A stretch of 41,321 nucleotides of DNA. Source: Clostridiales bacterium (GTDB lineage Bacteria; Bacillota; Clostridia; Christensenellales; Borkfalkiaceae). Shown piece after piece: positions 5,978 through 41,064 of this stretch. Both the position numbers and the translations under genes were made by a program. The notes below the pieces were generated by a model. It saw only the letters and a list, made by a program, of their open reading frames with translations, was not told the origin of the DNA and did not search any database. Location: positions 1 through 41,321 of the forward strand of contig JAMPAF010000016.1 in the NCBI GenBank assembly GCA_023667345.1, read 5' to 3'. Each line of letters begins with the position of its first letter. Position 1 is the first letter of the stretch.

Positions 5978-6027
5978 TAATTTTTTTGATTATAATTAAT
6001 CTCAGAAAGGTTCGGAACGGCGCTAAA

Positions 6028-10406: not shown

Positions 10407-10421
10407 CTTATAAAAGCATTT

Positions 10422-10458
10422 GCCCCCGCGCAGCGAAATTCGCCGCGCGGGGGCTTTT
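10422..10458 (+). terminator. Terminator of the 9921 gene
   Basis: Stem GCCCCCGCGC / GCGCGGGGGC (10422-10431 and 10445-10454) followed by TTTTATAT. The giant cluster ends convergently at 10521, and no separate terminator with a T run is visible for it; the same hairpin may stop both. Confidence 0.8.
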
Positions 10459-10520
10459 ATATCTATAAATTCTTTCGCGGTGAAATCTTTTCCCCGCGCC
10501 GCCGCAATATACGGCAGCCG

Positions 10521-13500
10521 TTAATCGCTTCTTAAACGCTTTATTAAATCCACAGCTTGCTGCTCGGATATCACGTACTTGGTTACGCGGGTTAATCCGC
10601 CTATCTCGTACGCGCTCTCCGCCTCGCCGCTCAGGCTGTCAATCAAAAGAGTGTCGCAAACCTTATAGCGGAGTAAATCGGACGCAAACAGCAAATCTAT
10701 GTCGCCTTCGGCACACCCCCTCAGCGTTTCCAGATTAATCGTGGGCACAGTGAAGGTTTGTCCCGCGCCGCTTGCGTCTATCGCGTTGAATACCGCGTTC
10801 ATTTCGTGCGCCGAAATAACGCCGCGTTTTTCCCCTTTCGTATCGGTTATAACGTCTAAGTTTTCGTCGCTTACGTAAAGGTTGCCCGCGTTCTGACTTA
10901 TTATCTGTTCGGTTATCTTTGCGCGCACTATGCGGCTCTTTACTATTACCCCCCGCTTATCCGCCGCAGGATATTCAAAGCCCGTCGCCCCGACCGAGTT
11001 TACTTTTGCATCCTCGCCGAACATTGCGGTGAACGCTTCGCACAGCGCCCACACTTCGTCGCCGTCTATACAGCCGTAACTGTCGATTAAATCTCTGTCG
11101 ACAATGAGGTTTTGATTGTCCCTTACTATGCTGTCGGAGACCGCCTTTAAAATGAGGTACGATTTTACGGAGCGGTCGGCATTGAAAAGGCTGCCCTGAA
11201 TTTTGGATAGCGAAACATCGTCGAAATATGTGTCTTCTACGTTGTTAATGTTCTCAACAAGGTCTAAAACCGCCTTTATCTCGCCCTTCTTTATTATCTT
11301 TAAGTCCTCTTCGTAAGCTTTGGGGTGGTCGACGCCGAGGGTGTTGTTTTCGGATATCTGCTTTGTGAACACGCCGCGGATAATTACCGACGAAATTACG
11401 ACGTCGGTATCTTCGATATCCGAAACCGCCTCGTTTATATCGAGGTTATTCAGGTCGTCGAAGTTCTCTATTCCCAAACCGTTTACCGCGTAAATGAGTT
11501 CGGATATGAGCTCTTTTCCATACCGTTTATAGCCGCCCTTTATGGAATAGAGCACATTTTCGTCAATCAACTGAACGGTATTTTCCTCTTCGTCTTTGCT
11601 GTTTAATAACACGTCGTCGAGAGCCTTGCTTAATACCCCGCTGAATATTGCCGACGGGTACACCGCGTCGAGCTTAGTCCCCGTATATCCCTCGGGCGCG
11701 GCGGCGTTTAAGCTTAAAATTTCCGTCTTAATCTTATTTGCAAGCTCGTCGCCGTCGATATTCATTACGTCGATATCGAAAATTTCGAGCACGCCCGAAA
11801 GGCTTTTAAGCTCCTTTTCGGTGTAGTAGCCGCCACTCTTTGCGCCGTAGAGTATATCCTCGTCGATATTGTCCTTTAAAATGTCGTCAAGACGCGCGGT
11901 TATGCTTGCCCGCACCACCTCGGACGCGTAGCAAACATTGAGACGGGTTACATTGCCGTTGACTTGCGACGCGTCGTTCATTGTCTTTAAAAAGTCGGAA
12001 AGTTTGTCGGTTAAAGCCTCTTCGTCAAACACGAACTCGCCCTCCGCGGCGGATATGCCCATTATCTCGTCGAGAGCGTCGATAAGGCGCACGAGCTCCG
12101 CCTTCCACGGGTTTGTCGCGTTGAACTTTGCAAGCCTTTCCGCCGTCGCCGCCTGCTTATACTTTTCGGGCAGACTGAGCATATTGCCAACGTCCTCGCT
12201 ATCGGCGAGCGTTCCCGCAACCGACGCAGAAAGTATGTAACTTTCGGAAAACAGCTTCTTGTTCTCTTCGAGCACGAGCTTTGAAAGCACAGAGGTTATA
12301 TCGGAGTCTTCGGATAAGCCGAACGATTTGACCAGCTTTATCACGTTTTCCACCTCGTTCTTTCTTACGAGCGCGGGGATAGAGTCGTCCTCGAGCTTCT
12401 GCATAGCCGCTTCCGGCACAGTCAGCTTAAACGTGCCGAAATCGTTGTTTTCGCCCGTGAGGAATTTGGAAACCGTGTAGTGCAGAACGCTTGATTTTAA
12501 GCATGTCTGCAAATTTTCGTCGGTGAATTGGTCGGACGTGAATTTATCGAGTATGCCGTCCGCGTCGAACTCGCCGCTCACTATGTCGGCAACCTTTATG
12601 CCCGCCGCATCGAGCGCGCCCAAAAGATTTTTAAGTTCGCCGTCCTTGCCTCCCGCCGTCGCCCAGCCGTCGAGGTCGTCTTTGAGCGACTGCGGAATTA
12701 CAACCGTTCCGTCGCCCTTTAACGCGTTTACGAGGTGCAAAGCCACGGTGCCCTCGAAAACTGTACTGCTGCTAAGCAGCGTGTCAAAGACGGGCTTTTC
12801 GGTAAATTCGGCGATTGCCGTCTTCATATCCGCCGCTTCGTCCTGCAATATGGGTTTAATAAATTCGATAAGTTCGGAAAGGCTGTCAAAGAGCGCGGAA
12901 AGCTCTTCCTCTTTTATGAATTTGACGGGTTCGCCCCCGACCTTTTCGCGTGCCGCCGCGGGCACGTACGCGTAGTCAGCGCCGTAGTTTATTACCGCCG
13001 CCGAGATTACCGAGCGCAACAGCCCCGAGCGCACTATGTACTGCGCCAAAGAATTTCCGTTTTCGTCGGGCGTATTTACCGTATCGTTCAAGGCGTTGAG
13101 GAATTTTTCCATATCCCTGTCTTTATCGAAACTTTCGAACATGGAAAGCAAATCGCTGTTTTTACCTATCGCGCCCAAACCGTTTAAAACGTTGTACATT
13201 TCGCCCGCTTTTTCGACTTCGCCGTCTGCGTTATAAACCGTTTCGTACACCAAATCGCGCGGGAGATATATGCCGTCGAATAGGCTTGAAAGCGCGCTTT
13301 CGATAAGGGTGTATATTTTGCTTGTCGCAAGCGTTTTGCCGAGAATTTTCGAGCTTAAAACGCATTTTGTGATTTGGTCGTAATTTGCGATATTTTCGTC
13401 GTAGTCGGGGTTTTGCTTGTCAAAAACCGCAATCACCGCGTCGAGCGGCTTGCCCGCCGAAGAGACGCTGTTATAGAGTTTGAGCGCGCTATCCGCCACG

Positions 13501-15284
13501 TCTAAAAAGGCGTTAATCTCGCTCACCCACTCGATATTTTCGCGGTAAATATCCGCGTAGGCGACGCCTTCGGTCCCCTCCTCGGTAAGATAGCGGTTTA
13601 CCGCATAGCAATACAGCCTGCCGAGCACGGGGTCGAGCTCTTCCGCTCTGTTTTCGTTTAAAAGGGAAATCTGCTTTATGCGCGGCAAGAGGTCGGCGAC
13701 GAGGTCTAAAACCTCGTCCGTCGTCGAGGTGTTTTTGCCCAAAACGTCCATTACGAGATTGAAAATAATCTGCACGTCCTTCTTGGTTATAAGGCGCGAG
13801 ACGTTTATGTACGGCTGTACTATCTGCAAGTCGGTGCCGCCGAACACCTCCTTCAACGCCCTTTCGTCGGGAATTGTATCGGACAGATAGCCAGAAGTGA
13901 ACAGTATCTTTAAAAGCTCTCTGTTGTCCGCGCTTAAAGACGGCGCGAAGGACATATCGTCAATGTTGGCGATAGCCGAATTTACGAACGACATTGCAAA
14001 GTTGATTATGTAGGTCTGCGCGTCGAACTCGCTTATAAGTTCGTTGAACTCGGCGCGGAAAGCTTCCTTGGAAATTACGTCCATTACGGTGTCGAACGCG
14101 CTCTTTGTCGCCTCGCCCTTGATAAGCGGTTTAATCTCGTCGCCGCCGTATTTTAAGAGCAAATCCATCGTGTCGCGCGCAAAGCCCGTGTATGCCGCAA
14201 GCTCTTCGCGGAAAACAATATTGTCGGAAACGCCCAGTTCCTCGTCGTCAAGCTCGCCCGAGAATACGAGGTCGGCGGCGAACAGATAATAGGGAACGTT
14301 CTCCGTCGAAGAAATGCCGTTCAGCACCTTGAAAATGCCGTACGTGCCGTAACTTTCTATCGAACGGTAAACTGAATAGTACTCGTTTATGTTGCTGTCG
14401 CCGAAATCGAAGTCGCCCGCCTTGCCGTCGCCCCGCCCTACCGCTATGTAGAGCGCGGAGCCGAGGAAGGAAAGCGATAAAAGCCCTATCGCCACGCCGC
14501 GCACGAGCCCGACCACGCCGCCGCCCGTGTGATGCTTGGAATAGCGTCTGTCAACCTTGTTGTCAACATACTTCTTCTTTATCTTATCCCTGTACTTTCC
14601 CTCGGAATAGAAGCAAAGATAGATTATGTACATTATGAAGTCGAGTATGAGGAACAGGATATAAAGTATAAGCGCGAACGCAACGCGGTATATAAGGTCG
14701 GCTAAGGTGTAGATATATGCCTTGCTCCCGCCGAGCATAATCGCAAAATCGCCGCTTATTACCGTGGGAAGCCACTCGACGAAAACCTGCTTTATGCCGT
14801 TGCACTCCGCCGAAACGCCCAGCGTATTTGCAAGCGAGCCCTTGCCGCCGAACAGCATATCGGCTAATTTTAAGACGAAGCCGTCAACCGCGGGCAGCCT
14901 TACGAGAACCGCGTACAGAATTATGCACACCGCGGCGATTACCACCTCGTGAAGAAGGAGAATTAAGCTCTTTCTAAGCCCCCTCTTCAAGCCTATGAGC
15001 GTGGAGAACAGCACGGTGAGCGTAAACAGCACCGTGGGCACCCACTTTACGGCAAAGGTCACTAAATCGGGCAGGCTCCAACTTGTTGCCTCGACTATCA
15101 AATCGACGATTAACGCCGCGCCTATACCGCCCGCGACGATAAGGAAAATGAGTACCGCCGTTTTAAACCTGCGGAAGGCTATCGCCGTTAAAAGGAGCAC
15201 GGCGGCAATGACGAACAGCAGCATCTGCCAGTTCGCGAATATGCCGTTTATGAAGTTTGCAAAGCCCGCAGCGAGCATATTCAT
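10521..15284 (-). CDS. Giant membrane protein: CvpA-like membrane part plus helical-repeat ectodomain
   Basis: A 1587-residue protein, last gene of the cluster. Residues 1-285 hold about six hydrophobic segments (roughly 20-37, 43-64, 75-98, 106-129, 192-226, 257-282). GLKRGLRKS (98-106) and GGGVVGLVRG (254-263) resemble the two glycine/arginine motifs of CvpA-family proteins. By the positive-inside rule the basic loop at 230-251 is cytosolic, placing the remaining ~1300 residues outside. That ectodomain is acidic and helical; from about residue 835 it repeats a pattern of SSxILRxxVT...L.VP...I...E...L...LGI...D...LLxSxIL at roughly 100-residue intervals. I do not recognise this repeat. The ribosome site is AGGAGGA. 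Role inferred from context: membrane partner of the giant surface proteins. Confidence 0.85.
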   Translation of the reverse strand: MNMLAAGFANFINGIFANWQMLLFVIAAVLLLTAIAFRRFKTAVLIFLIVAGGIGAALIVDLIVEATSWSLPDLVTFAVKWVPTVLFTLTVLFSTLIGLKRGLRKSLILLLHEVVIAAVCIILYAVLVRLPAVDGFVLKLADMLFGGKGSLANTLGVSAECNGIKQVFVEWLPTVISGDFAIMLGGSKAYIYTLADLIYRVAFALILYILFLILDFIMYIIYLCFYSEGKYRDKIKKKYVDNKVDRRYSKHHTGGGVVGLVRGVAIGLLSLSFLGSALYIAVGRGDGKAGDFDFGDSNINEYYSVYRSIESYGTYGIFKVLNGISSTENVPYYLFAADLVFSGELDDEELGVSDNIVFREELAAYTGFARDTMDLLLKYGGDEIKPLIKGEATKSAFDTVMDVISKEAFRAEFNELISEFDAQTYIINFAMSFVNSAIANIDDMSFAPSLSADNRELLKILFTSGYLSDTIPDERALKEVFGGTDLQIVQPYINVSRLITKKDVQIIFNLVMDVLGKNTSTTDEVLDLVADLLPRIKQISLLNENRAEELDPVLGRLYCYAVNRYLTEEGTEGVAYADIYRENIEWVSEINAFLDVADSALKLYNSVSSAGKPLDAVIAVFDKQNPDYDENIANYDQITKCVLSSKILGKTLATSKIYTLIESALSSLFDGIYLPRDLVYETVYNADGEVEKAGEMYNVLNGLGAIGKNSDLLSMFESFDKDRDMEKFLNALNDTVNTPDENGNSLAQYIVRSGLLRSVISAAVINYGADYAYVPAAAREKVGGEPVKFIKEEELSALFDSLSELIEFIKPILQDEAADMKTAIAEFTEKPVFDTLLSSSTVFEGTVALHLVNALKGDGTVVIPQSLKDDLDGWATAGGKDGELKNLLGALDAAGIKVADIVSGEFDADGILDKFTSDQFTDENLQTCLKSSVLHYTVSKFLTGENNDFGTFKLTVPEAAMQKLEDDSIPALVRKNEVENVIKLVKSFGLSEDSDITSVLSKLVLEENKKLFSESYILSASVAGTLADSEDVGNMLSLPEKYKQAATAERLAKFNATNPWKAELVRLIDALDEIMGISAAEGEFVFDEEALTDKLSDFLKTMNDASQVNGNVTRLNVCYASEVVRASITARLDDILKDNIDEDILYGAKSGGYYTEKELKSLSGVLEIFDIDVMNIDGDELANKIKTEILSLNAAAPEGYTGTKLDAVYPSAIFSGVLSKALDDVLLNSKDEEENTVQLIDENVLYSIKGGYKRYGKELISELIYAVNGLGIENFDDLNNLDINEAVSDIEDTDVVISSVIIRGVFTKQISENNTLGVDHPKAYEEDLKIIKKGEIKAVLDLVENINNVEDTYFDDVSLSKIQGSLFNADRSVKSYLILKAVSDSIVRDNQNLIVDRDLIDSYGCIDGDEVWALCEAFTAMFGEDAKVNSVGATGFEYPAADKRGVIVKSRIVRAKITEQIISQNAGNLYVSDENLDVITDTKGEKRGVISAHEMNAVFNAIDASGAGQTFTVPTINLETLRGCAEGDIDLLFASDLLRYKVCDTLLIDSLSGEAESAYEIGGLTRVTKYVISEQQAVDLIKRLRSD

Positions 15285-15323
15285 TTTTCCGTCCTCCTTT
15301 TTAAGATTTTTTAAAAATTGATG

Positions 15324-16298
15324 TCAGTTTATAAGGTTCAGAAATGCGTCATCTGGAATATACGAGCCGGAGGGGTGGCGAAAATCGCGCACCGGACAGC
15401 CGTTAAACGCTCCGGAAAGCAGCGTTATGCTGTAATTAGTGTACACGCCCGTCAGGTTTTTGCAGTTTGTAAACGCGCCCGTATCCACCGTTATCACGCC
15501 CGAAAACGTGACGGTAGATATTTTGGAATTTTTAAAGGCGCCGCTATCTATCTTCGTGACCTTGTACGAGCCCAGTTCTTCGGGGATTACAAGGTTGGAA
15601 GCGTCTCCCGTATAGCCGTAAACGGCTACGCCTCCGTCGTAAATTCTTAAAAGATAGCTTCCCTCGGTAAACTTTTTCGTGTCCTTTTTGAACATATATA
15701 AAGTTACGAACACGAACGCGAGCGAGAGTATGATTATGAGCACGTTGAAAACCAGCGGGAATTTGGTGAGATTCCTCGACGTGACGTCCTTCATTACGAA
15801 GGGGTACTTGCTCTTTTTGTACTTTTCGGGCTTTACCTTTGGTTCATTTATCTTTTTAGCCCTTTTGCTCTTCGCGGCGTCCTCTTCCTTGGGGCGGGTT
15901 TCGTCGCTGTAAAACATTCCGAACTTGTAGGTGTTGTCCTCGAACTCGCCCTCGTTCCACACAAACCTGTCGAACGCCGCCTGAATTAAGCGAACCGAGA
16001 CGGACGTGCATTTAAAGCTTACACGAAGCTTTGCCTTGGGGACGAACTCCTCCTCCGCGCCCGCGAGAAACTCGTTGTAAACCACCACCGACTTTTCTAT
16101 CAAATCGCCCGCCGCATTGTACTGGCACACCTCGAACCGCATGCCGAGGAGCTGTTGGGTAACGTTGTTGTTGAATCTGAATACAATGTACTTGCGGCTG
16201 GACTTGTCGTCCTCGAACACAATGTATTCGTTTAACGTTACGGGGTCGGACGACTTGTCGGTGTACTTTATTTTGGTTACGGTATTAAACGAACTCAT
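15324..16298 (-). CDS. Single-pass membrane protein with BspA-like leucine-rich repeats
   Basis: A 324-residue protein. Residues 1-135 form a strand-rich domain (YIVFEDDKSSRKYIVFRFNN...) that I do not recognise; 136-180 is a basic linker (KSKRAKKINEPKVKPEKYKKSK); 181-203 is one membrane helix; 204-324 is outside and contains BspA-type leucine-rich repeats (LRR_5): LVIPEELGSYKVTKIDSGAF, then STVTFSGVITVDTGAFTNC and ITLLSGAFNGC. This orientation puts the N-terminal domain in the cytosol, fitting the basic linker. BspA repeats commonly mediate binding at the surface. The gene overlaps the end of the preceding one by 14 bases and its ribosome site GGAGG lies inside that gene, indicating translational coupling. 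Confidence 0.85.
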   Translation of the reverse strand: MSSFNTVTKIKYTDKSSDPVTLNEYIVFEDDKSSRKYIVFRFNNNVTQQLLGMRFEVCQYNAAGDLIEKSVVVYNEFLAGAEEEFVPKAKLRVSFKCTSVSVRLIQAAFDRFVWNEGEFEDNTYKFGMFYSDETRPKEEDAAKSKRAKKINEPKVKPEKYKKSKYPFVMKDVTSRNLTKFPLVFNVLIIILSLAFVFVTLYMFKKDTKKFTEGSYLLRIYDGGVAVYGYTGDASNLVIPEELGSYKVTKIDSGAFKNSKISTVTFSGVITVDTGAFTNCKNLTGVYTNYSITLLSGAFNGCPVRDFRHPSGSYIPDDAFLNLIN

Positions 16299-17019
16299 AT
16301 TCCAACGCGCCTCCGTTCATCGCCTTTGCGTTCTTGCGGCGGAAGCTCAGCACGGTTACGAAATAGCCGAGCACCGCAAGCACGAAGCTTGCGCCTATCG
16401 CAATGTAGTTTAAAGAGTTGTTGAGGTACTGGTACGCCACGTTTCTGCCGTATATTAAGCTTCCGCCCATAATTTCGACGATAACGTGCCTTAAAACGAA
16501 GAGCGCGGCGAATATTACGGCGCTCTTTAAGCACGCGTAAACGCGCAGTCTCTGCATGGATATGGGGCGCACGTAATTCTGGTTTATCACCGTGCCGTCC
16601 GCCTCGGCAATGACCACGTTCACGCGGGCGCAGCTTCTTTTGAGCGCAATAATGCGCGAGGACACGTCGGTTAAATCCCTCTGCGTAACCTCGAGCACAG
16701 ATAAAACCCTCTTGCGGCGGGAAAACTGCACAACGTAAAAGCGTATGTGTCTGAATGTTTCGGTGAAGTTGCAGACGAGGTATTTTTCGTACGCAGATTT
16801 ACACACGACGTACTTTTTGATAAACCGCCGCGTTTCGCCCGAGGTGAGATATATGGAGTTTATCGAATTGACCGACCTCTCCTTTTTCAACAGCTCGTCC
16901 TCGTGATAGTTGTGATAATATTTGTTTTTGGTAAGATTTGTGCACAAAAGGACTATTACGCCCGCGATAAAAAGTACCGCCGATATAAGGCACAATATCC
17001 TCCACCATAGCATTGTCAT
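16285..17019 (-). CDS. Three-helix membrane protein, unknown function
   Basis: A 244-residue protein with hydrophobic segments at about 5-27, 164-183 and 203-227. The ~135 residues between the first two are basic and polar, with cysteines at 73, 83 and 130 and a strand-rich pattern (VLSVLEVTQRDLTDVSSRIIALKR). The frame stays open upstream to a TTG at 17091, but those extra codons come from an inserted repeat; the ATG at 17019 has AGAGG six bases away and is the likely start. It is translationally coupled to the leucine-rich-repeat gene that follows. No family is recognised; the context suggests a part of the surface complex. Confidence 0.8.
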   Translation of the reverse strand: MTMLWWRILCLISAVLFIAGVIVLLCTNLTKNKYYHNYHEDELLKKERSVNSINSIYLTSGETRRFIKKYVVCKSAYEKYLVCNFTETFRHIRFYVVQFSRRKRVLSVLEVTQRDLTDVSSRIIALKRSCARVNVVIAEADGTVINQNYVRPISMQRLRVYACLKSAVIFAALFVLRHVIVEIMGGSLIYGRNVAYQYLNNSLNYIAIGASFVLAVLGYFVTVLSFRRKNAKAMNGGALEYEFV

Positions 17020-17031
17020 AAAAACCTCTGT

Positions 17032-17147
17032 CGTTACCGTAAATTTATAGTTCCTTCGACTTCGCTTCGCTTCGCTACTGCGTGCCGACAAAGTCGGGAC
17101 AGGATGACGCCCCTGCGGGGCGGAACGTTGCCGTAAATTTATAATTC
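17032..17147. repeat. Inserted repeat flanked by 22-bp direct repeats
   Basis: The flanks CGTTACCGTAAATTTATAGTTC (first 20 shown as pattern: 17032-17053) and 17126-17147 match at 20 of 22 positions. Between them lie 72 bp with tandem CTTCG words, GCTACTGCGTGCCG (also at 683-696), a GGATGACG word and a CCCCTGCGGGG hairpin. The right flank contains the stop codon of the 379-residue gene (17139-17141). It is the only repeat unit inside the giant cluster. Confidence 0.7.
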
Positions 17148-18278
17148 TTCGCCGCCGCTTTCGTCTAAACCGTCGTCAGATAAGCCGTCATCTGCTGCGG
17201 GCTCTTCGCTTTGCGGAAGCTCGTCCGCGTAGTCGTCCTCATCGCCTAAGCCGCTTTCCGTCTCTTCCGCCTGTGGCACAGACTGCTTTGCGGGCGGTTC
17301 GGGCTGAGGTGCGGGCGCGGGCTTTTGCGCCTTCTTTTTGGGCTTATGCCTGTGCGCAAGCTCCTCTTCGGGGGGCGTCTTTTCCTCTATGCCATCGTCG
17401 AAAAGCGCGGTTAGATTGTCCGCGATTTCCTCTCTGTCCACCCTTGCGCCGCTTATCTTTTTAATATTTATGCCCGAGGTGCGCTTTTGCGCGTTTACGG
17501 GGTCGAGCGCGATATCCTCGAAAAGAAGCACGAGCGAAAGGTTTTGCGTCATGTTGAAAACGGGTATCGTAAAGCCGAGTATGAGAAGGCTTACTATCGC
17601 CCATACAAGAACTATGAGCAAGGTGTATCTGCGCCCGCCAAACAGCAGCAGTATGGCGACAAAGCCCGCCACGCACAAGCCGACTATCAAAGACATAATC
17701 AGAAGGGGCACGAACACGCTTAAAATTACCGTCATTTTGCCGCGGCTCTTCATCGAGTTCACGCACACGGAAACGACCTCGCCCGCGGAGAGCGCGGGGT
17801 TGCTGTCGATAACGTACGACGTGGGCGAAAACACCGCGACTACTATTATAGTGTAAACGAGGTAAATTATCAAGCAGGGAACGGCAAAAATAGCGTAAAT
17901 GAGCGCAGTGTACTCAATCGACACGAACTGCGAGATTGCGAGCCCGAGCGCGAATATCGCGCCGCAGACCACCGTTAAGAGCAGAAATCCGCCGAGATAC
18001 ATCAAAAACTCTATTACCGTTGCCACTATCTTCGTCCACAGCGGCTTTTGCGAAGCGCGGGTGAGCGACTGCGGCACGTCGACCGTGCGGGCGTTTTTGG
18101 CGATTTTTGCCTGACGCACGTCGGCTAAATCTACCATTGCGCCCAAAACTACCGTGAGCCGCGCCACAATCGACATAAAGAAGTACAGCATACTCTTTAT
18201 GACGTTCTTATTTTTCCAAATGGTCTGGGCGGAAATTTTGAACGCCTGCCTGAAATACCAGGCGAAACCTTTATTCAT
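17139..18278 (-). CDS. Multi-pass membrane protein with acidic cytosolic tail
   Basis: A 379-residue protein. About five to six hydrophobic segments lie at 27-51, 84-118, 124-150, 183-215 and 219-241. The segment after the third, SPTSYVIDSNPALSAGEVVSVCVNSMKSRGK, resembles the loop of DUF975 and GlpQ-type membrane domains, where a helix pair follows an SPxxYV...NP...SA pattern; the match is by eye only. Residues 260-379 are hydrophilic: first basic, then a KPKKKAQKPAPAPQPEPPAK stretch, ending in a strongly acidic tail (EDDYADELPQSEEPAADDG). Its ribosome site is GGAGG. It starts 39 bp after the 5394-residue gene. A docking or scaffold role for the tail is only a guess. Confidence 0.8.
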   Translation of the reverse strand: MNKGFAWYFRQAFKISAQTIWKNKNVIKSMLYFFMSIVARLTVVLGAMVDLADVRQAKIAKNARTVDVPQSLTRASQKPLWTKIVATVIEFLMYLGGFLLLTVVCGAIFALGLAISQFVSIEYTALIYAIFAVPCLIIYLVYTIIVVAVFSPTSYVIDSNPALSAGEVVSVCVNSMKSRGKMTVILSVFVPLLIMSLIVGLCVAGFVAILLLFGGRRYTLLIVLVWAIVSLLILGFTIPVFNMTQNLSLVLLFEDIALDPVNAQKRTSGINIKKISGARVDREEIADNLTALFDDGIEEKTPPEEELAHRHKPKKKAQKPAPAPQPEPPAKQSVPQAEETESGLGDEDDYADELPQSEEPAADDGLSDDGLDESGGEEL

Positions 18279-18317
18279 ATTACCTCCGTGGGGCGCGGTA
18301 CGCGCCCCCGCATTTTG

Positions 18318-30300: not shown

Positions 30301-33300
30301 GTAACGGGGTCGTCCTTTCCGTCCGTCCTTGAATATCCCGTATCCGAAACCAAGCCTTGCAGTTGGTCCTCTCTGCCATAGCGATAGCTCGTATCGCTGA
30401 GCTTGATATGCACCTGCTTTTTTGCGATTTCGAGAACGCCGTCGTTTAAGTATTCCGAAGTGCCCGAGTTAGGGTCGGACGCGATAAAGGCAAACTGATA
30501 ACACGTCGGGATGGGCGCGCCGTCCTTATCAAAGAACACGGTGTTAGCCCCGTCGACAGTTATCGTGTACCTGCCCGCCGCCGCGGGCTTTTCGTTTATG
30601 TATTCGTTGCCCTCTCCGTCCACGTACTTAACGGCTAAGTCTATCGTATCGCCGTAGAAGAGCTCGCCCTCGTACAGGTCGGGCTGACCCTCGGGGTAAT
30701 CCCACCCGTCGCCGTATTCAACGCCCGAAATGTCCTTTATATCGACGGCTACCGTCGCATACTGTATATACAGTTCGCCGTCGAGCAATGTGATATTGTA
30801 GTTTTCTCCGTCGCTTCCGAACGCTATTTCCGTGCCGTTTAAATTAACTGCGTCCGCCGTAATGCCGTAGCTGCCCGCATATTTGGGCGCCTCTATCCTA
30901 CCCGCGTTTACTCTTTCGTAATCCACCCATTCTATTTTATAATAGGAATAGCCGAGAGTGATTTCATCGCCCTCTATCACCGTACCCGAGGTTACCGTAT
31001 AGCCGTTTTCGGGCAAACTTTCGCCGTACGTGATGAAATTGTTGTCGTTGATATTTGTAAAGCTGTCTATTCTCAAAGTTACGGCGCGCGCGGTTACGGT
31101 AAGCGTGCCCGAATTGAACGTGAACGCGTAGTTGCAGTTTTCAATATCAATCTCTTTGCCGTCGATAAATACCTTATCTTCGTAAATATCGTACTCGCCT
31201 ACGTCCTTTACCGTGCGGTCGTACTTGTAGGTGAGCGTGAGTTGTTCGTTATAGGGCAACTCCGTCGCGTACGGGGTGAGCGTCAGACCGAGGCTGTATG
31301 TTTTGTTGTTTACATTCTCGCCGTAGACCGCCGTGCCGTTGCCGATATCGACCTCAACCTCGCGCGGGGTGACGACCTCTTCGCCGTCCCCGCAGGTTAT
31401 GATATAGTTGGTTGCATTGCATTTGCCGTCGCTGCCCGCGGTTGCGCTCTCGAATAACGAGCCGTCCTTTCTGAAAATTTCGAACACAGCGGCAACGGTT
31501 TTGTACGTGCCCGCGTTTCTTAAGGTCACGTATTTGCCGTCTTGCATATATTTTGCGGTTACGGTAAGCCTTTCGCCGTTGACGAGCACGTCGCCGCCGT
31601 TGACGTTATAACCGTTCTGCACGAAACGAACGTGCGTACTTTCGGTCATCTGGACGCGATAGCCGTAATAGGTTGAATACTCCGCAAGCCCTATATTTAC
31701 GGTAACCTTTTTGACCGTAAGTGTGCCGTCGACGTATTTCTTTACCGAGTAGTTGCCGTGCGTATATCTGTTTGCGTTTTTGATTTCGCCCGCGTCGGTT
31801 ATCGACTTTTCCGTAGTCGGTATGAGTACGTCGGGCAAGCCTCCCAAATCCTCGCGCGAGACTATGCCCGCCTTGGTTTCGTCGGGCACCCATTCGCCGT
31901 CCTTTTCCACCGCGTATTTTGCCGTGTACGAAATGTCGGAGAGCGGCGAGCCGTCGTAGGACTTTTCCCTGCTTGCGGTGTACACGATTATCGGGCGGGG
32001 AATTATGACGAGTGAGCCGTATATATATCCGGCTATTTTATAGTTGCCGTTGGGCACGGAGTAGGTTACCGCGTTCTGCGTGGGGATATCGTCTATCGTT
32101 CTTACCGTCATATAGCTGTTTACGGTAAGTTCGTCGCCGTTCAGAAGTCCCAGCCCCTCGCCGTCTCTGTACGCCGTCGTGTAGGACGTATCGTAGAAGG
32201 GTTTGCCGTCGTAAATATGGCTTGCGGTGGCGGTTGTTACAATTATATTCCTCTGCCCGATTACGAGCGTGCCCGCGGTGAACGTGAAGTCGTAGTTTTC
32301 AACACTTGCGTTGCCGCCCGAAATCGCCGCGTCACCGTTGCCCACAATCGAATAACTGCCCGCGTTGAGCAGAGTGTAAGTCCGTCCGTTTTCGTCAGAC
32401 CAGTTTGCAGGCGTGCAAACCGCGCCGTCCCTTTCGAAATGCGTTGTAAAGGACAGCGTTTCGCCGTTGGGAAGCGCGCCGCAACCGAGGGTGAAGCCGT
32501 TATCGGGGATATTTTCGCCGTAAACCGAATTTGCGTCGTTTACCGTAACCGAAACGGATTTCCGCCTTACCTCGAGAGTGCCGCAGGCTATCCCGCCCAC
32601 GAGCACATAGTTGGAATGTGTGCCGTCGTACGTGGGCAACGTGTATGCGCAGACGTTGGGAACCGAGCCCGCGTTTGTCAGCGAGGTTGCGCTCGTCGCG
32701 GTGAGCATATCCGTGCCGCACAGCCCCTCGCCGTAGGCGTTTATGCGCGTTGCCGTGTAGCCCGCGTCAGAGAAGGGCGTGCCGTCGTATTCGCGGCTTG
32801 CGTCAACCGTTTTAACCGAAATTTGCAGAGGCTCGATTTTAAGCGTGCCGAGGGTGTGCTCTATAACATAGTTATATCCAACGTCCTTTCCCTTTTCGTT
32901 GCGGACGGTGTATTCGACCGCGTTTTTAACGCCGCTTCCGCCCGTCACGTTTGTAACCGAGAAGGGCTTTGTAATTTTGAGCGAGTGCCCTTCCGCGAGG
33001 TTGGTATACGCGGGGTTGTCGCAGACAAGCGGGTCGCCGTCGTAGACCTTTGTATCGCTGCCCGTGGTTACGGTGATATTGCGCTTTTTAACGGTTAGTT
33101 TGCCGTAATTGTATGTAATTTCAAAGTTGTCGGTTACGGGTATGCCGTTTAACGTTACGCGCACCTTAAAGTCGTTTTTGTGCTCGCCCGCGTCGGTCGT
33201 GTCGGCGGAAAGGCTCTCCACCGCCGTTACTTTGAATTTTTCGTCAAGCGTTTCCGCGACGGTGAAATTGAAGTCGGTGAAGGGCGTGCCGTCGTAGGTG

Positions 33301-34502: not shown

Positions 34503-34547
34503 AAAATACCTGTGTTTTGCCCTCTATTTTTCGCTTATTTTACCTAA

Positions 34548-37500
34548 TTAAACAATAACTAACTGTACCGCAAGTCCCGCGTCGACGGTGCCGTTTACGT
34601 TGGTGAACTCGTAGCAGCCCGAGTTTGTGAGCGTGTAGTCGGCGAGATAGTACAGATAGAACAAGGTGTCGCCGTAGTCCTCGCGCTCAGCCATCGCGCT
34701 TCTTATTACGAGCTGGTCGCCCTCTGCAAGAAGGGTCGTAGGGGACAACGATATATAGTCCTTGACCTCTAATATCTGCTCGCTCGCGTAGCCGCCCTCT
34801 TTGTAGCGCTGTTCGCTCATATAGTACGGCGACGCCATAAACGTCAGCGCGCGCTTGTTTATCTTAAACTCGCCGCCTTCGACTGTTATTTCGAAGTTAT
34901 CCTTTACGCTCTCGTCTATAAGCTCGACCCCGTACTTATAAACGCTGTCTGTTGTAATCTTGTACGATACACCCGTATCACCGTCGGTGTAAACGTCGTA
35001 CTCTACGCCAGTTGCGGGGTCGGTGTACTTGTTACCCGCTATCTCCGCGCCATCTTCGAGTGGCTCGTAGTAGTTGTTGGCAAGGCGCAGTTCCTGATAG
35101 TACTTAACGCGCAAATCTTCCGCCTTTATAAGGTCGCTCTTCGCGCCGTAGAAGTCGGTTATTTCGGTTACCGCATATCTGATATCGACGGTATAAGTTG
35201 AGCCGTTGTACTGCTTTTCGTAGTTCTGCAAAACTACGGTAATCTGCGCGGGAACTATCTCCCACTCGCCTTCTTCGAAGGTTAAAGTGTAGTTGCCCGC
35301 AAGCTCGTCGGAAAGCTTTACGCCGTAGGAATATTTGCCGACGCCGAGCATATCGCCCGAATAGGTGAATGCGAACGATGCCGCGGTTATGCCGTCGGGA
35401 TTGTCCCCGCCGACCGTGAGGGCGGTTATATCCGTTGCAGAAGCCGTTTGAACTTTGCCCGTGTACTCTTTGCCCGTCGTCTGACCGATATAGCTTTTAA
35501 GCCCGACCGAAATAGTCAGCGGGGCTACGTTCAACACGTTTTTGCCGTCGGTAACTATGTTGTAGTTCGCCGCCGCGCCGCCGTCCTTTAATACGACCGT
35601 GAATGTATGCTCGCCGACGTTTGCAAGCCCCTCTTCGCCGAACACGATTGCAAAGTTGTCGGGGGAGAATTTTTCGTTGTCGACTTCCGCGATTGCGTCC
35701 TCGCCCGAAAGGCTGATATCGCCGCTCAAACCCTTGTAGGCGGCGGTGAGATTTTCGTTCAATTTAACCGTGATATCGGCGGGAACAACCGAAACGTAGC
35801 CGTAGTCGCAGTTAGCTTCGTCAATCTCGTAGTTTGCCGTAACGTCGGTTTTGATTCCGTCCAGCGTGCAGTAAATTCTGAACGCGAACTTGTTGAGAAG
35901 CGAGCCTTCGGATACGTTGGTTACCTTGACGATTTTGTTCTCGGCAGCCTCCCCGTCCGCTTCCGCAAAGTGACCTTCCACCGCGCCGTGAAGCCCGACT
36001 TCGGGCGCGCTCCGGGCTTCGCCCGTGTAAGTGAACGCTTTCGTGAGCGTGGAAACGGTTATCTTCCTCTTATTTACAGTGACTTTTCCGTTTGTAATTT
36101 CGATTTCAACGTCGCCCTCAAATTCAGCCAACTTTGCCGAAAGCCCCGCTCTGAGCACATAGTCGCCCGCGTTTGTATGATTGAGCGGCGTTTTGCTTTC
36201 GCCGTCGTCGTAAAGAAGCACGATATCGTCCTTTGTAAGTCGGTCGCCCTCAACCGAAGCTATCGGCGAAACCGTATTCACGTACTCCTTGCCGTCGATA
36301 ATAACCGTGTTTTTCTGCGACGAAAGGTCATACTCTTCGCCGTCGTAAACCTTGGAAAGGTCGTTTACGGTGATTGCGGTTTTGCGCTTAGCGACATGTA
36401 TCTTTCCGCCCTCTAAAACGCCGTCCTCTATTTTATCGCCGTCGTCGTTTGTGAGCATAAAGTTGCCGTTTGTAAGCGTTGCGGTATAGGTATAATCGCC
36501 CGAGTGCAACAGCGCCGTCTCTTTGCCGTCCTTTAATACTGTGAACTTAAAGTCCGCGGCGGTTATTAGGCTGTCCGCCCCCAAATTCAGCGCGTCCGCA
36601 CCATCAATTCCATGTTCCTCAAAGTTGAAAGTAAACGTTAAATCATTGAGCGATACGGAAACTTCCAACTGATTGATTTCTATGTTTGCATTGCGGTCCG
36701 CGCCCTTTCGGATAACCAAATCGAAGTTGCGCGCCTTATCCTCGTCTTTTATAACCGCAATGTACTCGTACGTGCCCGCGTCCACGATTTTATCGAAGCC
36801 CACAGCCTTAAATGCGAAATCTTCCTCTGTTACCGTAGCCGCAATGGCTTGCTCTTCCGGCGTTGCTTCCGTACCTATTAAAATGTTTGCGGAGTTTGCG
36901 GGAATTACAAACTCTTCGCCTGAGTAGTTTTCGGTATAGTCTGCAAGCGAGATATTTACCGCGAACTTATTGATAACCAAGTCGCCCTCGGGCACGGTAT
37001 AGAGGAAATTCTTAGCTAAATTTTCGTCCTCTATGACCACGCTGTATCTATACTCGCCCGCGTTTAAAAACTCTTCGGCGCAGACGATAGCTAAATCTTT
37101 ATAGGAAAGTATGCGCCCGTCGACGGATTCCCTCTTGCCGTCAAGAATGGAAACCGTCTCTTTTAGGTCGATATCTTTAACGTTGCCGTCGTACTTGAAC
37201 GCGTCTTCGCCCGTGTAGGACTTGACAATGCTTAAAATTACTGGCATTTTCCTTACGTTCACGGCGCACGTCATCTGCGCGTCGTCTATTTCAAAGTTAG
37301 CCGCGAACGCCTCGTCGGCAAATCTGACCGTGTAGGTGTACTTGCCGAAGTCCTTTACGGGCGCGGAATATTCTATAATAAAGTCCGCCTCGGCAAAGGA
37401 TATACCCTCTGCATCCGACTTGTTTTGTGCGACGGTGTATTCAACCCCGCCTATGGTTATCGCTCTTATCGCTTCTTGCGCCGTGAACTCCTTTACTTTG

Positions 37501-40500
37501 CCGTCGTAGGTCATATCCACATTCAGGGCGTTTGTAAAATCGCTCAGCGATAAGGTCGCGTTCACGGGGGTTACAGTAAGCTTGCCGCAGTCTTCCGAAT
37601 AGACGATTTCAAAGTTGTCGGTAACTTTCGTGCCGTCCGTTGTATATATGTCGCAGTCGAAAATGTTGTCTACGGTGCCCGCATTCGTAATCGAAAGAAG
37701 CTCTGTGTTCTCGGCAAGACCCGCATTGAAATTCCGTCCTAATGCGTCTTCCTCAATAAACACCGTTGTAGCGCTTAACGGTCTGCCGTTGTAAGGCTGC
37801 CAAGCGTTTAACGTTCTTAAAGTTATCGTACATTTCGTTATTTCGAGGGTGCCGTACTCGTAAGTTATATCGTAGTTGGATATAACCGTTATGCCGTCGC
37901 TTATAATATCTATTTCAAACTTATTTTCTTTCGTGCCGAAGTCGGTTATCGAGGGCATGTCTTCATCGGCGGGGAAGCTTAAAATATGGTTGGAAAAAAG
38001 CTTTATTTTCTCCGCTTCGGCAACAGACTTTTCAATGAGCGGCGTACCATTGTAAGCGCGCTTATTGCTGCCCGTCGTTACGGCTACGGGGAAAGGCTTT
38101 ACCTTAAATGCGCCGCCTTCGAAAGTGAATTCATAGTTGTCGGCACTTTTGTTGCCGCCCTTTATCGACTTGCTGACGGTTACCGCCTGATAGTCGTCCG
38201 CGTTGAGCAGAATGTGTCCGTCATCGTCCTCTGTATACTCAACGGTTGCACCGTCCTTTTGCAAAGCCGTCGTAATTTCGAGTTTTTCGCCGTTGGGAAG
38301 CTCGCCGCAGTCGAGCGTAAAGCTTATTTCGGGCAGAGCCGTATCGCCGTACACCATCGCCGTATCGCCGATTGTTACGGTTACTTTTTTGGGATTGATT
38401 GTCAATATCGCGTGGTCTCTCGCCGTCACGCCCCCGTCCGCGCCCGCAACAGGCACTTCGAATGTGAGCGCGTAGTTGTGCTGCGCCTTTAACTTTATCG
38501 CAGCTACGGTGAAATTGTAATTATCCGCATTGACGGGCTCGGGTTTTTCGTCGTCGAAAACTATCCGCAAATCGCTCTTTGAAAGCCCGACAGTGTCGTT
38601 TATATCCTCGCCCTCTTTGACGGAAGTCCTTTTAAGCGAAAGCACGGTTTCGTCGATGCCGACTGTCTGCGCATAGCCGTTGTAGGTGCGCTCCGCGTCC
38701 GCAAGAGTTACCGTTATAGGCAAAGGGTTGACCGTAACCTTTACGCCCTTGTCTTTGTCGGACAAGCCGCTTATCTGCACGTCGAAATTTTTAGCAACCG
38801 CGCTGTCGGCAATCTTTACAGTGTATGTATAATCATCGCCCGCGTCTAAAATTTCGTCCGCTATGACCGTAAAATCTTCCTTTGCAAGAAGGTTGTCAAT
38901 CTTAACGTCGGCAGGCAAAGTCGCATTGCGCAAGGCTATGACGGAAATCGCGTCGTCTACGGTTATTTTTACCGCTTTACCCGAGTAGGTGAACGCGTTG
39001 GCATCGCCCGTATACTCTTTGAGCGTGACGGAAACGGGCAGAGGCTTTATCTCCAAAATGCCGCTTTCGGGCACGAACAACTCGTAATTCGAGTATTTTT
39101 GCCGCTGTTCGCTTGTGGCGTCCTTGAATTTTACCGTATACCAGTACTCGCCCGCGCTGCACATTGTGCGCGTTTCCGCAACCGCGTCGAAGTCGGAATA
39201 TGTGAGCGAGAAGTTCACCTCTTCGCCGTCGGGCAGAATAGGGTCTACCGCAAAATAGCTTGCGTTTTCAATTGTGGGTATGTGATTTTTACTGTCGTAA
39301 TTTACCTTTTCCCTGTCGCTTTCCGCATTTTTGAGCGTGACCTTTACGGGCAGCACCTTAACCTTTAAAGTGCCGTATTCGTATGTTATGTCGTAATTTT
39401 TCGTTACGTCGGCGTTTGTTTCGTCCTTGATTGCAACCGTGTACGCGTTGGGTATTTCGCCCGCGTTCGTTATTGAGGGAAGATTGCCGTCGCCGTCTAT
39501 CTCTATATACTGCTCTTCGTTGACGAGTTGGTAGCTCGCGCGGTTAGTTTCGAGCGGGTCGCCGTCGTAGTACTTTTCGGCGGAATAGGTTTTGAAAACG
39601 AGTTCCTTTTTCGTAACTTCGATTGTGCCGTTTATGCGGGTTATATCGTAATTTTCGATAAGCCCCTTTATGGTGACCTCGGCTATCACGTTCTCGACCT
39701 TGCCGACGTCGGTGATAGAGCCGTAGTACGAGACGCCGACAAACTCGTCCCTTTCGGCAAGCCCTTCGACCTTTAACGCCTCCTTATCGCCCCTTAGCGA
39801 CCGCTCTTCGCCGTTGTACACGTAGGTTTCGCTCTTTGCCGTAACGGTGAGCGGGCGGGGCGTGATTTTAAGCGAGCCGGTGTATTCGGACAGGTTGAAC
39901 TCGTAATTGTCGGTGACGTCCACGCGCTTGTCGCCGACCGTTTCGTAAATTTTAAGCGACGTAATCTGCGTTTCTATCTCGTCGACGTCGGTGATTTTGT
40001 CGCCCAAGCCGTCGTTTATTGCAAATTCGTACTCGTGCCCGTCCACAAGCTTGTAGGCGCGCCCGTCGCCGAGAGCCGTCTCTTCCTTGAAAATTATCCC
40101 GTTGACGGAAAGTTCCGTGCCGTCGTACACCTTTTCGTCGGATTCGGGGCAGACGGCTATAACGCGCTTTATCACCTCTATGCCTTCGTGTCTGAATTCG
40201 ACTATGTTGTAGTTTTTGGTCACGTCGTTGCCCGCGATATCGTATATGAGCGGGGTTAAATCTTCGGGCAGAGTGTCGCCCACGTTGATGAGTGCCGCGT
40301 CGGTCGAGCCGTATATCTTATGACCGTTGCAGAGGTCGCCTTCGGAATCGTCGGATATTTTGTACTGGTTGAAGAGCACTTTCGAGCCGTTGTACACCAC
40401 CTGCTGCGCGGGCAGTTCCACGCTGATTGTTTTAGGGGTTACGGTGAGCGGCGCGCCGACTACCTTTATGGAATAGTCGCCCGTCACGTTGAAGCCGTTT

Positions 40501-40826
40501 TCGTCGTAAATTTTAACTATCGCGTCGCACATAGAGGTGCCGACGTCCGTCTGCGAGCCTATAAATTCGTAATTTGCGGAATGTCCCGCGGAGAGACTGC
40601 CCTTTTTAAGCCTTATGTCCTTTTCGGGGTCGTCGTATCTGAGCGGGGTGCCGTCGTATTCCTTCTCTTTGCCCAGTCCCTCTATGTCACCTATCACATA
40701 TACAAGCTCTATGGGGTCGGTTTTCATAGAGCCCGTCGCATACAGTGCCAGCGCCGTCCCGAGTGACGCCGCTACCGCTACTACCAGTATTCCTACGATA
40801 AGTATCGTTTTCCTTAATTTTGACAT
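34548..40826 (-). CDS. Large surface protein built of YDG/MBG-type repeats, 2092 residues
   Basis: First gene of the cluster. The N-terminus (LRKT, then hydrophobic residues 8-30, ending TALALYATGS) is a signal peptide, possibly cleaved after the ALA-like site, or an anchor. I count about 21 modules of 85-130 residues. Those in the first half are YDG type (KEYDGTPL, KVYDGTELS, KYYDGDPLE), with one MBG-type module (MVYGDTALPEISF); the second half is divergent, with S.A.NF.I or AGEYRYSV patterns instead of NAGTY. The last module ends in AVQLVIV with no anchor motif. The frame stops 45 bp before the 5394-residue gene. The start has AAGAGG upstream. The shared architecture indicates that the two proteins descend from one ancestor and probably act together. 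Confidence 0.9.
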   Translation of the reverse strand: MSKLRKTILIVGILVVAVAASLGTALALYATGSMKTDPIELVYVIGDIEGLGKEKEYDGTPLRYDDPEKDIRLKKGSLSAGHSANYEFIGSQTDVGTSMCDAIVKIYDENGFNVTGDYSIKVVGAPLTVTPKTISVELPAQQVVYNGSKVLFNQYKISDDSEGDLCNGHKIYGSTDAALINVGDTLPEDLTPLIYDIAGNDVTKNYNIVEFRHEGIEVIKRVIAVCPESDEKVYDGTELSVNGIIFKEETALGDGRAYKLVDGHEYEFAINDGLGDKITDVDEIETQITSLKIYETVGDKRVDVTDNYEFNLSEYTGSLKITPRPLTVTAKSETYVYNGEERSLRGDKEALKVEGLAERDEFVGVSYYGSITDVGKVENVIAEVTIKGLIENYDITRINGTIEVTKKELVFKTYSAEKYYDGDPLETNRASYQLVNEEQYIEIDGDGNLPSITNAGEIPNAYTVAIKDETNADVTKNYDITYEYGTLKVKVLPVKVTLKNAESDREKVNYDSKNHIPTIENASYFAVDPILPDGEEVNFSLTYSDFDAVAETRTMCSAGEYWYTVKFKDATSEQRQKYSNYELFVPESGILEIKPLPVSVTLKEYTGDANAFTYSGKAVKITVDDAISVIALRNATLPADVKIDNLLAKEDFTVIADEILDAGDDYTYTVKIADSAVAKNFDVQISGLSDKDKGVKVTVNPLPITVTLADAERTYNGYAQTVGIDETVLSLKRTSVKEGEDINDTVGLSKSDLRIVFDDEKPEPVNADNYNFTVAAIKLKAQHNYALTFEVPVAGADGGVTARDHAILTINPKKVTVTIGDTAMVYGDTALPEISFTLDCGELPNGEKLEITTALQKDGATVEYTEDDDGHILLNADDYQAVTVSKSIKGGNKSADNYEFTFEGGAFKVKPFPVAVTTGSNKRAYNGTPLIEKSVAEAEKIKLFSNHILSFPADEDMPSITDFGTKENKFEIDIISDGITVISNYDITYEYGTLEITKCTITLRTLNAWQPYNGRPLSATTVFIEEDALGRNFNAGLAENTELLSITNAGTVDNIFDCDIYTTDGTKVTDNFEIVYSEDCGKLTVTPVNATLSLSDFTNALNVDMTYDGKVKEFTAQEAIRAITIGGVEYTVAQNKSDAEGISFAEADFIIEYSAPVKDFGKYTYTVRFADEAFAANFEIDDAQMTCAVNVRKMPVILSIVKSYTGEDAFKYDGNVKDIDLKETVSILDGKRESVDGRILSYKDLAIVCAEEFLNAGEYRYSVVIEDENLAKNFLYTVPEGDLVINKFAVNISLADYTENYSGEEFVIPANSANILIGTEATPEEQAIAATVTEEDFAFKAVGFDKIVDAGTYEYIAVIKDEDKARNFDLVIRKGADRNANIEINQLEVSVSLNDLTFTFNFEEHGIDGADALNLGADSLITAADFKFTVLKDGKETALLHSGDYTYTATLTNGNFMLTNDDGDKIEDGVLEGGKIHVAKRKTAITVNDLSKVYDGEEYDLSSQKNTVIIDGKEYVNTVSPIASVEGDRLTKDDIVLLYDDGESKTPLNHTNAGDYVLRAGLSAKLAEFEGDVEIEITNGKVTVNKRKITVSTLTKAFTYTGEARSAPEVGLHGAVEGHFAEADGEAAENKIVKVTNVSEGSLLNKFAFRIYCTLDGIKTDVTANYEIDEANCDYGYVSVVPADITVKLNENLTAAYKGLSGDISLSGEDAIAEVDNEKFSPDNFAIVFGEEGLANVGEHTFTVVLKDGGAAANYNIVTDGKNVLNVAPLTISVGLKSYIGQTTGKEYTGKVQTASATDITALTVGGDNPDGITAASFAFTYSGDMLGVGKYSYGVKLSDELAGNYTLTFEEGEWEIVPAQITVVLQNYEKQYNGSTYTVDIRYAVTEITDFYGAKSDLIKAEDLRVKYYQELRLANNYYEPLEDGAEIAGNKYTDPATGVEYDVYTDGDTGVSYKITTDSVYKYGVELIDESVKDNFEITVEGGEFKINKRALTFMASPYYMSEQRYKEGGYASEQILEVKDYISLSPTTLLAEGDQLVIRSAMAEREDYGDTLFYLYYLADYTLTNSGCYEFTNVNGTVDAGLAVQLVIV

Positions 40827-40866
40827 ATATGTTTACCTCTTAAAAAGAGCGAAAAATTCTTTGTTT

Positions 40867-41062
40867 TAATTATGAATTCGTAATGCGGAATTGTGGAATA
40901 GAACCCCCACCACCCGCAAAGCGGGAGCCTCCCCCTTGAAAAGGGGTATGCCTTTATCCGCAATAACCCAAGGCTCACCCTTCTTTAAAGAGGGGGGAGC
41001 TATCACGTTAGTGACTGAGGGGGGTATTCAATTCTACATTCTGCATTCTTAATTCTGAATTA
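40867..41062. repeat. MITE-like element with ~40-bp terminal inverted repeats
   Basis: The left end (TAATTATGAATTCGTAATGC...) and the reverse complement of the right end (TAATTCAGAATTAAGAATGC...) align over about 40 bp and both run into a C tract. The interior has several hairpins: CCCGCAAAGCGGG, CCCCCTTGAAAAGGGG, a TCACGTTAGTGA palindrome and CCTTCTTTAAAGAGGGG. It begins 40 bp before the 2092-residue gene and ends two bases after the stop codon at 41065. No transposase is encoded; mobilisation would need one in trans. Confidence 0.7.
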
Positions 41063-41064
41063 GC

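Follow-up and report, generated by a model that had tools for sequence, protein, structure and literature searches.

Conserved linkage of giant MBG proteins with an McrBC-like NTPase module in Clostridia: a candidate surface machine

Which partners serve giant repeat proteins that are encoded in one row with several membrane proteins, and what would these partners do? The question is raised by a contig of a Clostridiales bacterium (JAMPAF010000016.1, here C7), which in its whole length of 41,321 bp is the window analysed here and belongs to a genome assembly of 1.59 Mb that is 83% complete. On its minus strand, at 10521-40826, an earlier reading made from the letters alone (the sequence-only reading) had proposed a six-gene surface-assembly operon composed of two giant repeat proteins and four membrane proteins regarded as their dedicated partners. 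The results presented below indicate that these genes are the rear portion of a ten-gene operon, in which two AAA proteins with intact motifs, a GH3-like protein with a dead AAA part and an McrC-type DUF2357 coiled-coil protein are encoded directly upstream of the giants. Judging from sequence, the prospects are about even that the products form a membrane-bound, McrBC-derived nucleoside triphosphatase (NTPase) complex at the inner face of the membrane, dedicated to the two large surface proteins, which it would assemble, cluster or move.

A six-gene row that continues upstream

The six minus-strand open reading frames (ORFs) were confirmed, and the intergenic gaps of 45, 39, 119, -14 and 39 bp match the figures first given. 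The right end of the contig, however, carries the last 84 residues of a seventh gene on the same strand, an McrB-type AAA protein (AAA2), and this fragment aligns with residues 403-486 of an AAA protein of the sister species G004 (92% identity, E 1.1e-46). In that species, proteins of 1118 aa, 486 aa (AAA_5), 616 aa and 498 aa (AAA_5) are encoded before the six, the 1118-aa protein consisting of a GH3 C-terminal domain, a Fn3-like domain and an AAA-like C-terminus. Since the contig breaks inside AAA2 and the relatives continue upstream, the gene order of the sequence-only reading is real but describes the rear of an operon, and the six genes are ruled out as the whole system. The full order is GH3-like/dead-AAA, AAA1, DUF2357, AAA2, small MBG, giant MBG, followed by the 379-, 244-, 324- and 1587-aa types, and it is complete in three Clostridia metagenome-assembled genomes (MAGs; G004, G828 and G826) as well as in a Bacillales MAG (G830). 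In the window's own genome, the dead-AAA/GH3 gene and the start of AAA1 were found at the end of another contig (C30); in our reading, the near-identical AAA copies broke the assembly. In order of transcription, the features of the window are:

41065..41319, minus strand: C-terminal 84 aa of AAA2, cut by the contig end; identified by its 92% identity to the G004 protein
40835..41055, minus strand: dispersed repeat of about 220 bp, resembling a miniature inverted-repeat transposable element, between AAA2 and the 2092-aa gene; 28 matches in its own genome, itself included
34548..40826, minus strand: 2092-aa MBG protein in the 'small MBG' position, one N-terminal transmembrane (TM) segment; MBG 32.1 bits against a cut-off of 23.3, same place in relatives
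18318..34502, minus strand: 5394-aa giant MBG protein, one N-terminal TM segment; MBG_2 above its cut-off of 25 bits in each half (27.7 and 41.1)
17139..18278, minus strand: 379-aa multi-pass membrane protein with a Pro-rich acidic tail; sub-threshold DUF975
16285..17019, minus strand: 244-aa three-TM protein (TM3); ATG start, hydrophobic segments
15324..16298, minus strand: 324-aa beta-sandwich/TM/LRR_5 protein; LRR_5 above cut-off, predicted structure
10521..15284, minus strand: 1587-aa membrane protein, encoded last in the operon; six hydrophobic segments near the N-terminus, then a long C-terminal region with no known domain
10422..10454, minus strand: terminator-like hairpin with a 15-bp stem, 13 G-C pairs and a weak T tail, beginning 66 bp past the last gene

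The MBG label of the two giant repeat proteins and the LRR_5 label of the 324-aa protein hold at Pfam cut-offs. The 1587-aa protein had been called CvpA-like, an identity for which no profile match was obtained in Pfam or NCBIfam. Each gene was also said to have its own ribosome site, which is clear by eye for five of the six and weak for the 5394-aa gene. The mechanical ORF of the 244-aa gene starts at a TTG (17091); the ATG at 17019 was preferred, since similarity to the G004 protein sets in at that point.

The claim that the neighbours are dedicated partners was strengthened by comparison with other genomes, which show the same neighbours in a kept order: that of the six genes in other Clostridia, and that of the six with four more in the Bacillales MAG. 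Unrelated neighbours in other genomes, which the sequence-only reading had named as grounds for refutation, were thus not what the comparison showed. The 379-, 1587- and 244-aa genes have matches in 6 of 61 genomes each, the window's own included, the sixth genome for the 244-aa gene (G015) giving a weak match; G009 has the 379- and 1587-aa genes and no 244-aa match. All six genes stand in one row in G004 and G051, the rows of G007 and G012 are cut by contig ends, and that of G009 lies on two contigs. A chance neighbourhood of unrelated surface genes is very unlikely, to the point of being negligible, because the order is kept from Clostridia to a Bacillales MAG and over most of the 67 loci described below.

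The repeat at 40835-41055 is not a component of the machine; in G012, the AAA2 and small-MBG ORFs are separated by 28 bp. No terminator-like site on the minus strand was found in the gaps within the scanned ranges (10400-18500 and 34300-41321), and the totals of the promoter and terminator scans lie within 2 standard deviations of shuffled sequence. An 8-bp hairpin made entirely of G-C pairs lies between the 5394-aa and 379-aa genes (18290-18308), with a T tail on the plus strand only. The locus is surrounded by the household genes pyk, pta and ackA. Elsewhere in the window, a 296-aa minus-strand protein with zero Pfam matches is encoded at 6392-7282, adjoined by a plus-strand ORF (5986-6348) that by eye appears helix-turn-helix-like.

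Core and accessories in 67 loci

To survey the distribution of the operon, an alignment of 13 AAA proteins was used to scan the species genomes collected in GTDB; the best 80 of 520 relatives lie in 67 loci, which were picked by AAA similarity and thus show what accompanies this AAA type, not how frequent it is. Genes were labelled with profiles built from sister genomes, and many of the loci are short contigs. Most of the organisms are Clostridia MAGs, and some are Bacilli (Anaeroplasma, Acholeplasmatales, 'Bacillales' and a MAG named Haloplasma contractile); the isolate Anaerocaecibacter muris strain CLA-AA-M11 is among them and carries an eight-gene form. A DUF2357-type protein and a dead-AAA/GH3 gene are each present in 55 of the 67 loci, two AAA genes in 48, the N-terminus of the giants in 42, the LRR protein in 24 and the three-TM protein in 22. 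One of the 24 LRR loci is spurious: L096:1689-2546 is an LRR-only ORF that was wrongly included both in this count and in alignment A4. Where the contigs are long enough the association is tighter: of 47 loci with 4.5 kb or more upstream, 46 have the dead-AAA gene, and of 40 with 6 kb or more downstream, 38 have a giant-type N-terminus; in the two that miss it (L093 and L141), the preceding gene fills the stretch or runs off the end.

Two layouts were recognised. In type II the order is dead-AAA, AAA1, DUF2357, AAA2, small MBG, giant, multi-pass, three-TM, LRR and 1587-aa type; among the six records read it is complete in G830, G828 and G826, and G833 and G831 were read partially. The multi-pass gene is labelled in four of five further type II records and has no profile match in G833, and the small-MBG protein of G830 reaches 25.5 bits with the Pfam MBG model (cut-off 25). 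In type I, the layout of A. muris, three-TM and LRR genes come first, followed by dead-AAA, AAA1, DUF2357, AAA2, small MBG and giant. Only one layout yielded the 1587-aa protein: it occurs in 10 of 20 genomes searched, none of which has an upstream three-TM gene in the locus. The three-TM protein occurs in 18 of these 20, and L105 and L122 have neither. The two MBG genes and the NTPase module make up the common core, to which three-TM and LRR proteins are often added; in other lineages these accessories lie upstream. In two loci (L077-L078 on G054 C20, L075-L076 on G017 C5), the small MBG protein has a long Pro-Trp-rich repeat before its MBG-like part, and a membrane protein of 269-278 aa occupies the place of the GH3/dead-AAA gene. 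A phylum-wide search of 398 genomes matched, at E 1e-40, only the class-B locus of the window's own genome (a second AAA and DUF2357 pair, see below), and the occurrence of the operon outside the order rests solely on the GTDB survey.

The NTPase module and its relatives

When compared with the PDB, the AAA profile retrieves three McrB sequences as its only matches under E 0.01 (best 2e-4), and the McrB model of NCBIfam ranks first for the AAA protein (E 1.4e-5, far below its cut-off). The surroundings of sensor 1 fit the N-x-D form of one McrB branch, as described in the consulted sections of Bell et al. (2024; PMC11090510). By pattern, Walker A, Walker B and NxD are all kept in 98 of 100 full AAA1 and AAA2 proteins, and N-terminal membrane segments are present in the AAA proteins scanned. 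The product of the first gene combines a GH3-like domain and a TM hairpin with an AAA part that has no NTPase motifs: none of the 50 full GH3-type proteins keeps any of them, and one of the 50 (L137, 714 aa) lacks the AAA-like part altogether. GH3 C-terminal and Fn3-like domains are above cut-off in all four first-gene proteins scanned and the GH3 catalytic barrel (PF00933) in none of the four (22.9 against 27 bits in G015); around the GH3 nucleophile site the alignment is too poor for judgement.

The adjacency of AAA and DUF2357 genes was seen in the survey loci as well as in the six records. Of 43 class-A proteins, 24 are matched by Pfam's DUF2357 model with an E of 0.01 or lower; a class-B protein of the same genome as the window reaches 33 bits (cut-off 23.3), and class-A and class-B proteins match each other by BLAST (E 2.7e-26). 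The AlphaFold model of a class-A protein combines an N-terminal alpha/beta part, predicted with confidence, with a very long helix (residues 348-558 and 571-615 helical), that is, a long coiled coil. No nuclease family is among the 23 Pfam families matched by the 43 DUF2357 proteins, which leaves room for a diverged, unrecognisable nuclease, and none is labelled among the operon genes of the six records. Nucleic-acid restriction is probably not the function of the complex, because no nuclease was recognised.

These data bear on an anti-phage or surface-sensing defence, in which the giants and the LRR protein would be outside sensors and the McrBC-like complex an inner effector or relay. Such a role might be expected from McrBC relatives, which the consulted sections of PMC11090510 describe as type IV restriction systems, and PDC-M26A, a PADLOC candidate model, matches the AAA protein (E 3.3e-44). 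The distribution is also patchy: of 396 genomes in the order, 20 have a DUF2357 protein in the class-A score range (E 2.4e-74 or better). On the other hand, the best stretch of the PADLOC match covers about 116 residues, only part of the protein, and other McrB relatives might give it too; the locus of the window lies amid household genes, and no nuclease is recognised in the proteins and records just mentioned. Defence is thus regarded as an unlikely account.

The closest described relative appears to be CoCoPALM, a system of the NxD branch of McrBC that was named and left for later work by Bell et al. (PMC11090510), and that, as far as the literature searched shows, was not studied further. 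As described in the consulted sections of that paper, it has an NxD-type McrB-like domain with a membrane segment, a DUF2357 partner with a coiled coil and a link to envelope proteins, all of which the present operon has as well. In CoCoPALM, the membrane part is an FtsB-like TM/coiled-coil fused to McrB (here, a TM segment in the AAA proteins scanned), and the operon includes a signal peptidase gene, whereas none is labelled in the operons read here, all genes of which were labelled or positioned, with unlabelled flanking ORFs unscanned. Instead, the present operon encodes two AAA copies, a GH3-like protein with a dead AAA part and a pair of MBG/YDG proteins, and the terms 'MBG' and 'glycosyl hydrolase' are absent from the main text of PMC11090510. 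The class-B locus of the window's own genome (contig C13; L082, 105-4699) consists of an AAA and DUF2357 pair between two signal-peptidase-like genes, one with a sub-threshold S26 match (20.2 against 22.9 bits) and the other similar by eye, and it resembles the CoCoPALM loci as presented in those sections of PMC11090510. About 2.6 kb upstream of it on C13 lie genes for EAL and GGDEF proteins. Classical McrBC type IV restriction shares the McrB-first PDB match of the AAA profile and the adjacent DUF2357 partner; the present operon differs in its membrane segments, the fixed link to surface-protein genes and the lack of any recognised counterpart to the PD-(D/E)xK nuclease that the McrC protein carries in restriction. 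In a tree of AAA proteins class A forms one group with a support of 0.19 and class B is not one group, so no descent is claimed. The motor type and its CoCoPALM cousin were already known, but the link to MBG giants, the GH3-like dead AAA, the twin AAA pair and the two layouts did not turn up in the literature searched. Among the entries listed there, which do not include most subscription papers and bioRxiv preprints, no description of MBG giants with McrBC-like genes was found, and there is a fair chance that the operon proves to be a kind of its own.

The two AAA genes are related in an unusual way. Their N-terminal parts differ, and their cores, which start about 50 residues ahead of Walker A and reach the C-terminus, are 99.1-100% identical in 32 of 38 loci; AAA1 and AAA2 of one locus are more alike than either is to any other locus. 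At the DNA level, the repeat is typically about 1.1 kb long, begins shortly before the AAA domain and runs to about the stop codon; the two copies lie 1.9-2.7 kb apart. Six loci, that of A. muris among them, have at least 10 codon differences and less than 5% amino-acid differences between the copies, and these total 174 synonymous against 5 other differences. Since these were retained, the assembler did separate the copies in the six loci; elsewhere, assembly could mask a few differences. Across the 34 of 38 loci with copies of equal length that were counted, there are 277 synonymous and 117 other codon differences, 107 of the latter in L138 and L141, which together with L134, L137, L147 and L148 form the six loci without near-identity. 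We infer that gene conversion and selection for identity keep the pair alike, and the pair is a striking instance of what appears to be concerted evolution in an ATPase encoded by two genes.

This pattern also bears on a static role, in which the NTPase module would be a membrane-bound scaffold of an attachment or shape structure and the giants would do the work. The long coiled coil of DUF2357, the dead AAA-like protein and the adhesin stalk domains of the giants would all suit a scaffold. However, the NTPase motifs are kept in nearly all AAA1 and AAA2 proteins, and the excess of synonymous differences in the six loci argues for a selected activity, so that a purely static complex appears improbable.

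The giants, their partners and a proposed mechanism

All 23 complete proteins in the giant position (cut proteins, L096 and G826 left out) have one N-terminal hydrophobic segment and neither a C-terminal TM segment nor an LPXTG-like motif, and their length varies from 650 to 5394 aa. By charge, the tails of the window's giants are predicted to lie inside and their stalks outside, and as signal-anchor proteins they probably enter the membrane through the ordinary Sec pathway. Among five giants scanned in relatives, YDG is above cut-off in three and AgI/II C2 in two; one (L142, 7511-13528) combines the AgI/II C2 domain with a transglutaminase-like core (72.6 bits, cut-off 23), and the last of the five, a cut protein of L116, has no domain match. 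No recognised adhesive domain is above cut-off in the giants of the window. In the sections of PMC9210967 that deal with them, fibrillar adhesins with MBG/YDG stalks are likewise very long surface proteins made of repeated stalk domains; their N-terminal, often adhesive end is distal to the anchor, in contrast to the N-terminal anchor and free C-terminus of the operon giants. A C-terminal anchor is usual and not strict in that source, about half of its training proteins having an anchor (PMC9210967).

Other MBG giants of the same order, encoded on other contigs, share the MBG domains, are 3,201-10,127 aa long and are anchored differently: none of eight matches the N-terminus of the operon giants (two are cut there, which leaves six informative), and seven of the eight end, by eye, in a hydrophobic segment and a Lys/Arg tail. 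Such a C-terminal hydrophobic segment with its Lys/Arg tail, again judged by eye, is seen in the MBG giants of 5,579 (cut) to 10,127 aa at L162-L164 (G024 C39, C36 and C25), L165-L166 (G014 C20) and L167-L168 (G006 C1).

The differently anchored giants weigh on another possible role of the module: as an unfoldase or quality-control device, it would pull out or clear giant membrane proteins that have stalled or misfolded, instead of building or moving a structure. The extraction of membrane proteins is common among AAA rings, and N-terminal anchors with short tails would offer a suitable handle. However, G024 and G022 carry the other kind of MBG giant without any AAA match (E 1e-20) or DUF2357 match (E 0.001). 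Additionally, clearance leaves the LRR, three-TM and GH3-like partners unexplained, and the same applies to 'giants' of 650-819 aa. This role is given a low probability.

Regarding the smaller partners, the DUF975 match of the 379-aa protein is sub-threshold (20.6 against 34.8 bits). The soluble domain of TM3 and the N-domain of the LRR protein are related to each other (hhalign E 4.5e-6, probability 86.5%). The model of the 324-aa protein (mean predicted local distance difference test score 83.4) shows a beta-sandwich at 1-130, a linker, a TM segment at about 180-206 and an LRR sheet. The sandwich is probably inside the cell, because there is no N-terminal signal segment and the LRR lies past the TM; equal charges flanking the TM leave the side unsettled. 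A fold search with this protein gave nothing under E 0.001; small beta-sandwich proteins, RhoGDI and PDE-delta included, appear at E about 0.05, which is not significant. The beta-sandwich of some McrC relatives was likened to RhoGDI in the consulted sections of PMC11090510. The six N-terminal hydrophobic segments of the 1587-aa protein come from a hydropathy scan.

Taken together, the preferred reading of a dedicated NTPase complex would work as follows. AAA1, AAA2 and perhaps the dead AAA may assemble into a ring on the inner side of the membrane, and DUF2357 would plug and stimulate this ring in the way that McrC acts on McrB. The ring would engage the tails of the giants by way of TM segments and of the beta-sandwiches, probably cytosolic, of the three-TM and LRR proteins, and NTP hydrolysis would be used to assemble, cluster, position or pull on the stalks. 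Gene linkage, domain content, the state of the motifs and the position of the anchor are observed; that a ring forms, that DUF2357 stimulates it, that it touches the tails and what the complex is for are inferred.

Several points weigh against this reading. Contact between the NTPase module and the giants is hypothetical, and the surface location and topology of the giants are predicted from their sequences. Two tyrosines in the tail before the segment and one glycine after it are invariant in 43 of 43 N-termini, which speaks for the reading, but these N-termini were themselves found with a model of the same region, and the mean identity of the tail (33%) exceeds that of the distal ectodomain (28-30%) by little; it is highest in the membrane-proximal domain (37%). 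The protein in the giant position is only 650-819 aa long in L147, G054, G017 and L137, and the small-MBG gene of most relatives was named by position, without a domain scan. As for the module, 19 of the 43 DUF2357 proteins, that of G004 included, miss the Pfam model at E 0.01; a fold search with the model of the DUF2357 protein gave no match under E 0.001, and helical and coiled-coil chains dominate the matches in a second look. In the window's own genome, a search for DUF2357 genes gave only the class-B one and failed to recover that of the operon. Finally, a single AAA gene is present in 19 of the 67 loci, many of them on short contigs, and in four loci (L128, L129, L136 and L145) the small MBG gene directly follows a lone AAA gene with no DUF2357 gene between.

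A bolder version of the mechanism, possible and on the whole doubtful, would be a new class of surface machine, in which a hetero-oligomeric McrBC-derived ring under the membrane actively extends, retracts or clusters very long, N-terminally anchored stalks. It would be built from the gene-conversion AAA pair, one dead AAA and a DUF2357-coiled-coil plug, and recombination between the near-identical, direct 1.1-kb AAA repeats that flank the DUF2357 gene might loop this gene out, switching the machine off in part of the population; the four loci with a lone AAA gene could reflect such a loop-out, or assembly collapses.

For giant proteins of this kind, the operon gives partners and a possible anchor logic, with an N-terminal anchor and the tail inside, and an isolate carrying its eight-gene form exists in A. 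muris. For the McrBC motor type, it would be a second link to the envelope beside that to signal peptidases, and thus provides a testable case that part of the superfamily serves the envelope, not defence.

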